A stretch of DNA of 49,745 bases from a virus. Of this stretch, positions 2,932-6,385 are shown piece by piece. The position numbers and the translations under genes are program-made. The stretch is taken from the IMG/VR virus record IMGVR_UViG_3300042937_000479, positions 1-49,745 of that record; one strand, written 5' to 3'. The notes beneath the pieces were generated by a model. That model had not been told where the DNA came from. It saw nothing but the letters and a program-made list of their open reading frames with translations, and searched no databases. Each line of letters starts with the position of its first letter. Positions within the stretch are counted from its first letter, which is position 1.

Positions 2932-2962
2932 AAAAGGGATGATCTTCGGATCATCCTTTTTT
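2932..2962. terminator. Bidirectional terminator between gp32 and the convergent tail operon
   Basis: GGATGATC (2937-2944) and GATCATCC (2949-2956) form a perfect 8-bp stem capped by a stable TTCG tetraloop. A T-run follows on the plus strand (2957-2962), and AAAA precedes it (2932-2935), which gives a T-run on the minus strand. It can therefore end gp32 transcription rightward and the minus-strand operon leftward. The minus gene's stop codon (TAA, 2961-2963) lies at its edge. Confidence 0.9.
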
Positions 2963-4916
2963 ATGTACTTACGCCACCAACATTGCCAACCAACATACTT
3001 TGCATAGATGGTTCTGGAGATGCAGTCATGTTTGGCGCACTAGATTCGGCTGCAGGTGAACTATTGGTAGTAGTGTTGTAATAATTGTTAACTACAGTAT
3101 TTCCAGGCGCAGTAGAAGCCATAGGTTGTCTTGCTTCGGCTTGTTGTTGTATACCCGAATTTATAGATTGCTGTGTTTGTGTCTGCAATGCTTTACCAGA
3201 TGATGCGGCAACCGCACTAGGCGTTACTGGGCTGCTTCCAGCAGCAGGAGTTGGGGACTGTGGTGTTCCTGTGCTTGGAACTGTAGGCTTCTGCATTGCC
3301 TGAGACATGGATGGTAAGTCTCCATATTCAGGATGTGCTGGCCCAGCTGGGCCAGTAGGAGCATCTTGCTTAGGTTTTGTTTCCTCTACCTGTATCTTTG
3401 GACCAATACCGGGTATACTGGCAGCAAAATCATACACACCAGTCGGCCCAATTGCGTTTACTAATGCACCACCCAAATATTCTCCTCCAAGAGAACCAAC
3501 CAATCCACCAGCAATCATTCCAAGTGGTCCTCCAAGCGTACCAACAGCACCGCCAATGATAGCACCAAGACCAGAACCAAGTCTTGCACCTAATTCTGTA
3601 CCAATTGCTTTTTTCTTTTCTTCAACACTCATATTTGGATCATCTTGGATGGCTTTTATAGTAAAGACTGCAATGAGTGGTTCTAAAACGGCAGAGATCA
3701 GTGCGCTACCTTTGATGCTTTTCAGCATCAATTTGCCACCAGGTCCTGCTAAGAATGCCTTTGGATTAGCAATTGCTTTTGCCAGCGCGGCTGGAGCAGA
3801 CGCCAGTTCACCCATAGCACTAAATGTTCGCGAAAAGAATCCTGCACTCTTTCCTGCTGTACCTGCCGCGCCTGCAGCACCCGCTGCTCCAGCAACACTA
3901 GTTGCTCCAGCGGCTCCTGCTCCTGCAGCACCAGTCATTCCAGCGGCTCCTGCTCCTGCAGCACCAGTCATTCCAGCGGCTCCTGCAACACCGGCTCCTG
4001 CTGCCGATCCTGTAGCACCTTTGCTAGCCAAACTTGTACCAAACCCAAGCATTTGAGCCCCTTTGCTCGTAACTGTTCCGGCTGCTTTAGTAGCAGTCTC
4101 TGCCACCCTAGTTTTTACTGCACCAACTCCTCGAACTACAGAATCAGATTTTTTAGCCAAGGTACTTACTACTGGACTTGCACCGCGTGCATTGGCTAGT
4201 TTTGCTAACCCCCCAGACTTTGCAATACCTGCAAATTGACCTACCATCCTTGGTAATGCTTTTTTTCCTAATGCACCCATCATTTTACCTTTACCAGGCA
4301 CCAACGATGCTATTGCAGCAACATCTCCCAAGGAAGAAAGCAGTCCTCCCCCACCTTCACCGCCACCACTTTTCTTCAATATCTTTTCTAATACTTTTTT
4401 AATCTTCTCTAACAGAGAGACTTGTTCAGATTCTAATTGAATTTCTTTCTCTTTGCCTTCCGCAGTTTCTCGCGATTCTTCTATAGAAGGATTTACAGAT
4501 GCGCTTTTCGATGCTCCAACTGAAGAAGATACGCCAGTATCCTTGGACATACCAACAATAGTTTTTGTTTTTTGTACTAAATCATTTACACTTTTCTTGA
4601 CAAAATTTACTAGATTGGTGTAAATGTCCAGTGCCTTTTTAGTATAATTATCACCAGATGTTATACTAGTAGGTTTAGTTACAGTAGAACCCCCTACAAC
4701 TCTTTCAGCGTTTTCTGCTGGAGTGCCAGTTCTTTCGGGTTTGGCTACATTTCTATTCTGTCTTTTTTTGGGAGATTTAGCTGGGCGACGACCTTTAGTC
4801 GCTGCTGACATATCAGACTGTTTTCCTAATACCATTTTAGCAATGTTACCAACTACAGTTCCATACCCCTTTGTTCCGGTATTTGTCTTTGGTAATGGTT
4901 TACTGCTTTTTTCCAT
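2961..4916 (-). CDS. Putative tape measure / baseplate hub protein (gp29-like)
   Basis: A 651-aa protein with the composition of a tail tape measure. In order: a basic, Lys/Arg/Pro-rich N-terminus (1-70); an amphipathic, probably coiled region (about 145-185, SLLEKIKKVLEKILKK); a low-complexity Ala/Gly segment with an 11-residue repeat (about 305-360); a glycine-zipper-like hydrophobic stretch (about 440-495, GLGAIIGGAVGTLGGPLGMI) that may insert in a membrane during DNA ejection; a Pro/Gln/Ser linker; and VVNNYYNTTT (about 605), a motif often seen in tape measures. It starts 1 base after the stop of the gp26-associated short ORF, as tape measures follow tail chaperone pairs in many phages. 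In T4 the tape measure gp29 is 590 aa. The main alternative is another hub structural protein. No sequence motif settles it. Confidence 0.55.
   Translation of the reverse strand: MEKSSKPLPKTNTGTKGYGTVVGNIAKMVLGKQSDMSAATKGRRPAKSPKKRQNRNVAKPERTGTPAENAERVVGGSTVTKPTSITSGDNYTKKALDIYTNLVNFVKKSVNDLVQKTKTIVGMSKDTGVSSSVGASKSASVNPSIEESRETAEGKEKEIQLESEQVSLLEKIKKVLEKILKKSGGGEGGGGLLSSLGDVAAIASLVPGKGKMMGALGKKALPRMVGQFAGIAKSGGLAKLANARGASPVVSTLAKKSDSVVRGVGAVKTRVAETATKAAGTVTSKGAQMLGFGTSLASKGATGSAAGAGVAGAAGMTGAAGAGAAGMTGAAGAGAAGATSVAGAAGAAGAAGTAGKSAGFFSRTFSAMGELASAPAALAKAIANPKAFLAGPGGKLMLKSIKGSALISAVLEPLIAVFTIKAIQDDPNMSVEEKKKAIGTELGARLGSGLGAIIGGAVGTLGGPLGMIAGGLVGSLGGEYLGGALVNAIGPTGVYDFAASIPGIGPKIQVEETKPKQDAPTGPAGPAHPEYGDLPSMSQAMQKPTVPSTGTPQSPTPAAGSSPVTPSAVAASSGKALQTQTQQSINSGIQQQAEARQPMASTAPGNTVVNNYYNTTTNSSPAAESSAPNMTASPEPSMQSMLVGNVGGVST
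3907..3986 (-). repeat. 33-bp tandem repeat coding for Ala/Gly 11-mers
   Basis: On the plus strand the unit beginning CCAGCGGCTCCTGCTCCTGC starts at 3907 and repeats identically at 3940, with a partial third copy from 3973, a period of 33 bases. In the minus-strand protein this gives tandem AAGAGAAGMTG units. Near-identical DNA in adjacent copies suggests recent slippage or unequal crossing over, so copy number may vary between relatives. Confidence 0.85.
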
Positions 4917-4917
4917 G

Positions 4918-5118
4918 TTATTTCTTCTTATTCAGCATGTCTCTTTTCTTATTTATGTCCTCGACATGTTTAATTAACATATTCAAATAGATTTCCCTCT
5001 CCCAAGGTATCATATTCTCTAATTCACTTAGGCTATACTTGTGTTCTTGAATTAGTATAAAATTGGTTCTATACATGTTTTCAAGAGATTCACTAGTAAG
5101 CCCTAATTGAAAAAATCG
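4918..5118 (-). CDS. Short tail-chaperone-like ORF, probably made as a -1 frameshift extension of gp26
   Basis: This minus-strand ORF is in the -1 frame relative to gp26. It overlaps the gp26 end and reads on from CGA TTT TTT CAA through GLTSESLENM to YSLSELENMIPWEREIYL and a Lys-rich end (stop 4920-4918). The 'ELENMIPWEREIY' pattern is like the short ORFs that follow gp26-type proteins in T4-like phages (gp51-like) and the downstream partner of tail assembly chaperones. The frame is open back to about 5148 without an ATG. The first ATG (5076-5074) would give only 52 aa, lacks a good SD and would drop conserved-looking sequence. The heptamer T TTT TTC at 5115-5109 is in the correct gp26 phase for -1 slippage. 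Function is inferred: assembly of the hub or tail tube around the tape measure, encoded next. Confidence 0.7.
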   Translation of the reverse strand, partial: RFFQLGLTSESLENMYRTNFILIQEHKYSLSELENMIPWEREIYLNMLIKHVEDINKKRDMLNKKK

Positions 5119-5807
5119 ATAAATTTGTCCAATACTACCTTTATCTTTTTATTTGTATATGGAGATATTGCGTCGTTTTCGTAATATAGCGTTGGCATGG
5201 TTTCAAAGAAATTGCCAATCTTGTCATACATGTCTTGTGGGAACTGTTCTATAAATTCCTGAAGTTCTTTCTTGGTATAGTCTTTTGAAGCATACACAAC
5301 ATCTTTATCGTATATCTTATCGATACAACTAGTCAATATATCAAATCCATTCTCGATGAGTGGCTTGGTTGCATCTACTGACATGATCGTTTTCATTGTT
5401 GGATATTTCATCTCAACGAACATATTTTCCGATAGCTTTATTCGCTTTTCGTGTTTTGGTGATCTCTTAACTATAACTTTGCTCAGATCAACATCTACTT
5501 CAAATTTTTTCTTTTCCTCTGGATCTACTATATTTACCTTTATAATTTCTCCCATAGATTTCTCTCTGATCTTCAGAAAGATATACTCAACATCAAAAGA
5601 AGGTAGGATGCTTATATCAACTTGATCTAATAAACAGTTTGTGATTACTTGTTCTAGTCCCAATAGAATCTGTTCGTTGTTTTTAGATTCTGCAGCAATG
5701 AGAAGAATTTTTTCTTCTTTTACTAAGAATGGTCTGTATTTTATTTTCTGCTCGCTAGAGGGCAATTTCAATTCATATGTTACAAAGTCGATCTTGGGTA
5801 ATGCCAT
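5103..5807 (-). CDS. 26: Baseplate hub protein gp26-like
   Basis: A member of the T4 gp26/gp51 baseplate family (T4_baseplate), which acts in assembly of the central hub. The 234-aa protein begins MALPKIDFVTYELKLPSS and has the family hallmark YRPFLVKEEKILLIAAES (about 25-42), then a mixed alpha/beta body with basic VKRSPKHEKRIKL and a C-terminal helical part (YDKIGNFFETMPTLYYE). T4 gp26 is 208 aa. The start is supported by AGGAG about 9 bases upstream on the minus strand. It ends two codons after a slippery heptamer, giving both a short product and a predicted extended fusion with the -1 ORF. Neighbours are a tail-tube-like gene upstream and the tape measure downstream, the expected setting for a tail assembly chaperone. 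Confidence 0.85.
   Translation of the reverse strand: MALPKIDFVTYELKLPSSEQKIKYRPFLVKEEKILLIAAESKNNEQILLGLEQVITNCLLDQVDISILPSFDVEYIFLKIREKSMGEIIKVNIVDPEEKKKFEVDVDLSKVIVKRSPKHEKRIKLSENMFVEMKYPTMKTIMSVDATKPLIENGFDILTSCIDKIYDKDVVYASKDYTKKELQEFIEQFPQDMYDKIGNFFETMPTLYYENDAISPYTNKKIKVVLDKFIDFFN
5109..5115 (-). promoter_or_regulatory. Candidate -1 ribosomal frameshift site (T TTT TTC)
   Basis: On the minus strand gp26 ends GAT TTT TTC AAT TAG. The heptamer T TTT TTC (5115 down to 5109) fits X XXY YYZ in the gp26 frame, two codons before its stop. Slipping back one base continues as CAA TTA GGG into the downstream ORF. I see no strong stem-loop just downstream, so efficiency may be modest. Confidence 0.65.
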
Positions 5808-5836: not shown

Positions 5837-6385
5837 TCACACTCCGCCGGTTTCAAATTTTGCTTCTTGGTATGCAAATGATACTGTTTGCTTCAAGTAA
5901 GAATCTCTCTCATCGAATGAATATTGTGTAGTATCTATATTTGTTACTAACACTTTCGATAATGTCAAATTGTATATTGTTTTGTCTTGTATATTCATTA
6001 CATTTATTTTGATTTCACCCCATATGGTATCTGCATATGCTACAAAATATTCTCCACTCTGAGCCGATACAATCTCTTCGATGTTTTCATATAATCCTTT
6101 TACTGGATTGCCGCTTCCATCTAATCTAAATGTAATATTACACACCTGTGCTGGTAGTTTTGCATATGGCACCTTCAGAGTGGGATGTGTGTTATATTGA
6201 TAGTCTGCAGTTCCGATTGCCATCGCAGGAAACTCTACACTTTCTGCATATGAATCGAAATTTGCAACTCCTTTATTTTTTGCAAATGGAAAATTAATTT
6301 CTACAAAAAATCGATTAGGTCTAACCAATCCATTTGTTGCTAGTGCTATTGCAGAAAACCCAGTTACTGATGATGATATTGCCAT
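5837..6385 (-). CDS. Tail-tube-like protein (gp19/gp54 family)
   Basis: A 182-aa protein with the two ends typical of the T4 gp19 tube fold: near the N-terminus RPNRFFVEINFP (T4 gp19 has RPNLFQVEIS), and near the C-terminus YSFDERDSYLKQTVSFAYQEAKFE, which parallels the final strands of gp19. The middle (FDSYAESVEFPAMAIGT and FRLDGSGNPVKGLYENI) also fits that fold. The normal gp19 gene lies beside the sheath gene gp18, outside this window, so this is probably a tube-initiating paralogue such as gp54, which joins gp48 at the hub. It is shorter than T4 gp54 (320 aa). The start overlaps the stop of the previous gene by one base (TAATG), indicating translational coupling. Confidence 0.6.
   Translation of the reverse strand: MAISSSVTGFSAIALATNGLVRPNRFFVEINFPFAKNKGVANFDSYAESVEFPAMAIGTADYQYNTHPTLKVPYAKLPAQVCNITFRLDGSGNPVKGLYENIEEIVSAQSGEYFVAYADTIWGEIKINVMNIQDKTIYNLTLSKVLVTNIDTTQYSFDERDSYLKQTVSFAYQEAKFETGGV

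Follow-up and report, generated by a model that had tools for sequence, protein, structure and literature searches.

A predicted -1 ribosomal frameshift between gp26 and a gp51-like C-terminal domain at a T4-like phage locus

In the uncultured T4-like virus analysed here (IMG/VR record IMGVR_UViG_3300042937_000479; the window is the whole stretch of 49,745 nucleotides), the homolog of T4 gene 26 ends within a second open reading frame that lies in the -1 frame and has no evident start of its own, and the question is how this second frame comes to be translated. The original prediction was that a -1 ribosomal frameshift joins gp26 to the short frame, in the manner of the G/GT tail chaperones and just before a probable tape-measure gene, and comparative evidence supports it. 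Judging from the sequence of the locus and of its relatives, we consider it very probable (about 0.9) that programmed -1 frameshifting makes a tail assembly chaperone pair, TAC-N and TAC-NC, from gene 26. The features of the locus are listed by position.

2961-4916, minus strand: ORF of 651 aa, probable tape-measure protein (by position and size; weak match to phrog_973, 6e-4)
4918-5109, minus strand: gp51-like C-domain (TAC-C) in the -1 frame, 63 codons past the slip plus TAA
5030-5103, minus strand: predicted 3' RNA stem of 74 nt beginning 5 nt past the heptamer, candidate stimulator
5074-5076, minus strand: first in-frame ATG of the -1 ORF, at codon 12 after the slip, unlikely as a start
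5103-5807, minus strand: gp26, short form (TAC-N), 234 aa, stop TAG at 5103-5105
5109-5115, minus strand: slippery heptamer T TTT TTC, in X XXY YYZ phase with gp26
5837-6385, minus strand: tail tube-like protein upstream of gp26 (phrog_45 tail tube, 9e-19)
Predicted junction peptide of TAC-NC in the window: FIDFFQLGLTSESLENMYR

On the minus strand, gp26 ends with ...AAA TTT ATC GAT TTT TTC AAT TAG, so the terminal GAT TTT TTC AAT TAG on which the original prediction was built is present, and its T TTT TTC is indeed in phase for -1 slippage, being a canonical heptamer in the zero-frame phase. Among the 38 ORFs of the window with at least 120 codons, gp26 is the only one whose last 12 codons include a canonical heptamer in frame; this, together with the recurrence of the heptamer in relatives described below, places the slip site above chance. 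Near-identical contigs of three other datasets (L001-L003) share the site, so that an error of assembly or in the homopolymer is ruled out.

The -1 frame has its nearest upstream stop at 5149-5151 and is then open to the TAA at 4918-4920, with 63 sense codons beyond the slip rather than the 66 first counted, and it contains the conserved-looking peptide YSLSELENMIPWEREIY that had been quoted for it. The conceptual TAC-NC fusion is 296 aa long. It had also been claimed that neither an ATG nor a Shine-Dalgarno (SD) sequence lies near the junction, and there is in fact no usable start before codon 12; the ATG found there shows no SD pairing (duplex -0.4 kcal/mol, against -7.3 kcal/mol for gp26's own SD) and sits 11 codons within the homologous region, which starts at the slip. 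When relatives are compared, codon positions 1, 2 and 3 of the -1 frame take 28, 15 and 56 % of the substitutions; with 56 % of the changes at position 3, the C-domain has the pattern of a protein that is read in the -1 frame and is under purifying selection.

Comparison with gp26- and gp51-like families, a check suggested along with the original prediction, assigns the two frames to the two ends of one family. The gp26 product matches PF12322 (T4_baseplate) at 1e-55 with 189 bits, the curated cut-off being 24.5, and it matches phrog_150, a gp26/gp51 profile of 282 positions, at 9e-60 over positions 5-233. The 63 aa peptide of the -1 frame matches phrog_634, the gp51 family labelled "baseplate hub assembly catalyst", at 3e-21, and covers positions 236-280 of phrog_150, the C-terminal end of that profile, so that phrog_150 alone holds both frames head to tail. 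T4 gp26 covers positions 14-235 of the same profile and T4 gp51 covers positions 13-280. In profile alignments the homology of T4 gp26 with the gp26 family extends over almost all of its length, and T4 gp51 combines a gp26-like N part (P 2e-7) with the C-domain, which lies at its residues 207-244 (P 3e-5). T4 gp51 thus carries in a single gene the N and C domains that the window joins through the -1 frame, and a short form and a C-terminally extended form sharing the N-domain are found at the level of genes. Genes 26 and 51 of T4 are two genes on opposite strands, unlike the single overlapping locus of the window; T4 gp26 retains the terminal GLKEFF but codes the FF as TTC TTT, and T4 therefore has no slippery heptamer. 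At the level of sequence profiles, these comparisons show that T4 holds the counterparts of the short and the long form as two genes, 26 and 51.

To see whether the arrangement is shared, as the original prediction asked, we drew relatives from IMG/VR and from annotated phages. The larger IMG/VR scan used the fusion as query and took the best 80 loci, so distant members are under-sampled, a bias that is partly offset by the annotated phages, which were mostly picked by gp26. In the first relative set the C-domain lies at -1 in 88 of 88 loci (window included), and after dereplication all 63 loci (window included) have the second frame at -1 and T TTT TTN in phase near the end of gp26, with TTC as the last codon in 53; elsewhere in gp26 an in-phase T TTT TTN occupies only 17 of 14,169 codon positions. 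The codon preceding TTT varies among AGT, TCT, GAT, AAT, GCT, ACT and CGT and so encodes six amino acids, yet its third base is always T; against a T-wobble background of 0.64, the product probability of this invariant T is ~1e-13, an indication rather than an exact value, since the loci share the slip site partly by descent and the P values assume independence. A second frame at -1 was also read in cyanophages, pelagiphages, ValKK3 (Schizotequatrovirus), Aeromonas phage CC2, Cronobacter phage LPCS28, Rhizobium and Sinorhizobium phages and marine single-cell viruses; the pelagiphage Mosig retains both the heptamer and the -1 C-domain even though its gp26 reads on to a later stop. Ackermannviridae (L095, L098, L100) and the Vibrio phages K475 and D495 (L091, L092), which were excluded from the 63 loci, keep the -1 C-domain with non-canonical slip sequences (ATTTTC, GTTTTC or CTTTTT/CTTTTC), at which only one tRNA could re-pair well, and a different mode of slippage is possible there. 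The reading frames, the heptamer, the homologies and their conservation are all read directly from these sequences.

Shine-Dalgarno-like elements and 3' structures are both known types of stimulator in bacterial -1 frameshifting, and candidates for each are found near this slip site. In most relatives GAGGG, GGAGG or a similar sequence stands 8-10 nt before the heptamer, and many have GAGGG at 9-10 nt. At this place the Glu codon is GAG in 34 of 41 cases, whereas GAG makes up 25 % of Glu codons across these genes (P 1e-14, again an indication), which makes the element more than a by-product of encoding Glu-Gly. The upstream SD-like element was not found in the window or its close clade. The window's predicted stem has a folding energy of -23.1 kcal/mol (z -4.0), and none of 200 shuffles was equally stable. 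The pairs at the base of the stem (GGGCU with AGCCU) are invariant within the close clade, so that covariation is little informative, and covariation of the full stem is not clearly above that of shuffles. Across relatives, the RNA right after the heptamer has a mean z of -1.9, compared with -0.4 to -0.9 in five control stretches (P 1.5e-6, likewise an indication). In two loci (L042, L050) there are perfect hairpins (GGCTCTC, a loop of 4 nt, GAGAGCC) a few bases past the heptamer and after the gp26 stop, and the stems at this place differ greatly in other lineages. A simple trade-off between SD strength and 3' structure is unsupported overall (Spearman -0.05), even though z is below -2.6 in the window's clade and in L006, where the SD is weak throughout. 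It is an evenly balanced proposal that T4-like phages tune one T TTT TTN slip by interchangeable stimulators, either an SD-like GAGGG 9-10 nt upstream, in most marine lineages, or a lineage-specific 3' stem in others, the window's clade among them. Such interchange would mean a turnover of stimulators around a slip site that is kept. The relative set amounts to a compact natural experiment on how stimulators change when the slip site is fixed.

Other processes might account for the same arrangement, and we judge all of them unlikely. The C-domain could be a separate small protein made by termination and reinitiation at or just after the gp26 stop. GenBank records frequently list gp51 as a gene of its own that begins at an internal codon. 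In some relatives (L004, L006, L090, L096) an in-frame ATG overlaps or adjoins the gp26 stop, and an overlapping TAATG, which some relatives have, could permit reinitiation. However, the window offers no start before codon 12 and no SD at that codon, no in-frame ATG is found in the junction region in 34 of the 63 loci, and in 24 of the 63 there is no ATG, GTG or TTG at all. Homology is already present from the slip onward, ahead of the ATG, and in T4 gp51 the C-domain is fused to an N-domain. Reinitiation would also leave the heptamer and the wobble T before it unconserved. Where independent translation would let the two frames lie in unrelated phases, with a separate SD for each and without a heptamer, we see the opposite, namely a constant -1 frame, the heptamer throughout the dereplicated set and many junctions with no start, and we therefore regard reinitiation as improbable.

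Frame-joining mRNAs could alternatively arise by transcriptional slippage, given that the heptamer contains a run of six identical bases, but a six-base run is short for slippage by RNA polymerase. The heptamer moreover ends in C at most loci, its phase relative to the codons is invariant, and the SD-like GAGGG and the 3' structure are of types that act on the ribosome, all of which makes this explanation very improbable. Still less credible is the notion that the C-domain is what remains of a decayed sequence, or that a sequencing error broke the frame. The C-domain is short and has no start of its own, as a remnant would, but the identical site recurs in the near-identical contigs of the three other datasets, it is conserved in every one of the dereplicated loci, and the -1 frame is under purifying selection. 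Programmed ribosomal frameshifting thus remains the reading that we prefer.

The neighbouring genes and the predicted fold of gp26 bear on what the two products may do. The 651 aa ORF directly downstream is probably the tape-measure protein, although this assignment is weak; orthologues of this ORF match tape-measure PHROGs (e.g. at 5e-10 and 1.6e-6), and the ORF itself shows no detectable similarity to the part of T4 gp29 with which it was compared. It contains a long Gly-Ala-rich repeat, GAAGMTGAAGAGAAG... Two of its orthologues (L022:2185-3984, L103:3381-5210) include segments that match endolysin PHROGs (phrog_12490, 2e-31; phrog_34252, 2e-22), and these matches are absent from the window's own ORF. 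Further along, at 26-2909 on the plus strand, glycosyltransferase-like and NAD-dependent epimerase-like ORFs were seen by eye beside a gp32-like ssDNA-binding gene (1989-2909).

The AlphaFold model of gp26 has a pLDDT of 89.9, and its N-domain (residues 1-94) superposes on the HK97 tail assembly chaperone 2OB9 with Z 7.8 over 84 residues, a value near the level of a mere common arrangement, yet well above the unrelated structures. Among the other solved matches, 3FGX scores Z 7.9 and 5IR0 4.4, the remainder being at most 2.5. For the comparison with the tail assembly chaperone fold, Foldseek gives a probability of 0.77 and E 1.3; its top-ranked PDB entries, GTP cyclohydrolase IB, were discarded (TM ~0.15, rmsd >20). 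A search of the gp26 profile against PDB sequences gave no match up to E = 1. The two-form architecture, together with the resemblance in fold, whose Z is not decisive by itself, and the tape-measure matches, supports a TAC-N/TAC-NC pair over structural proteins of the baseplate hub, and the label "baseplate hub" for gp26 may be wrong.

What we infer from these data is that slippage occurs, how efficient it is, what the stem does and that the products act as chaperones. Most ribosomes would stop at the TAG at 5103-5105 and release the 234 aa TAC-N. A minority would slip by -1 at T TTT TTC (5109-5115), probably aided by the stem 5 nt downstream, and would read 63 more codons to give the 296 aa TAC-NC with its gp51-like C-domain. 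By analogy with lambda gpG and gpGT, the N part may coat the tape-measure protein, whose gene would follow directly, and the C part may recruit the tail tube protein, so that the slip rate would set the ratio of TAC-N to TAC-NC.

The arrangement also touches on how these genes are annotated. In the GenBank records of P-HM2 (L103), HTVC008M (L089), OLIVR6 (L099) and Melnitz-2 (L104), gp51 begins at an internal start and is reduced to a stub of about 30-50 aa, the P-HM2 stub being 93 bases long including the stop, and it is missing from the annotation of Cronobacter phage LPCS28 and Aeromonas phage CC2 (L094, L097). Both the stubs and the omissions probably reflect a frameshift that went unrecognised, which suggests that in a number of T4-like genomes in public databases gp51 is mis-annotated, being either given a forced internal start or left out.

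Frameshifting in T4-like gp26 is not without precedent. In Virology 2022;566:9-15, Vladimirov, Gautam and Davidson reportedly found frameshifting to be apparently conserved in several T4-like groups, and T4's own group is said there to use genes 26 and 51. The PRFect paper (PMC10885494) cites this work for T4-like phages in which a short gene and a longer fused gene replace frameshifting, and the paper on phage Adele (PMC12846349) cites it for polyT slippery sequences in T4-like TAC-N genes. As described in these citing papers, the T4-like genes resemble the window in having a gp26-type TAC-N that is extended through a -1 frameshift at polyT, so that frameshifting in T4-like gp26 would already be known as a type; the claim that it is not commonly described in this context therefore gives way to that earlier proposal. 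Our statistics on the SD-like element and the 3' structure may be new relative to it. Atkins et al. 2016 described G-T frameshifting as widely conserved in long-tailed phages "except T4" (PMC5009743). Against that exception, the locus in the window and its relatives indicate that much of the wider T4-like group retains the frameshift signal.

The slippery sequence of phage lambda is G GGA AAG, whereas that of the window is T TTT TTC. Otherwise lambda gpG and gpGT resemble the pair proposed here in that a short and a long form come from one gene through -1 slippage just before the tape-measure gene, and in lambda the N part binds the tape measure and the C part the tube protein (PMC5009743), roles that we have carried over by analogy. 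Vandenendeviridae (phage Adele, PMC12846349), as is proposed for the window, have a conserved -1 frameshift with a polyT motif near the 3' end of TAC-N, but they are another phage group and their motif is GTTTTT.
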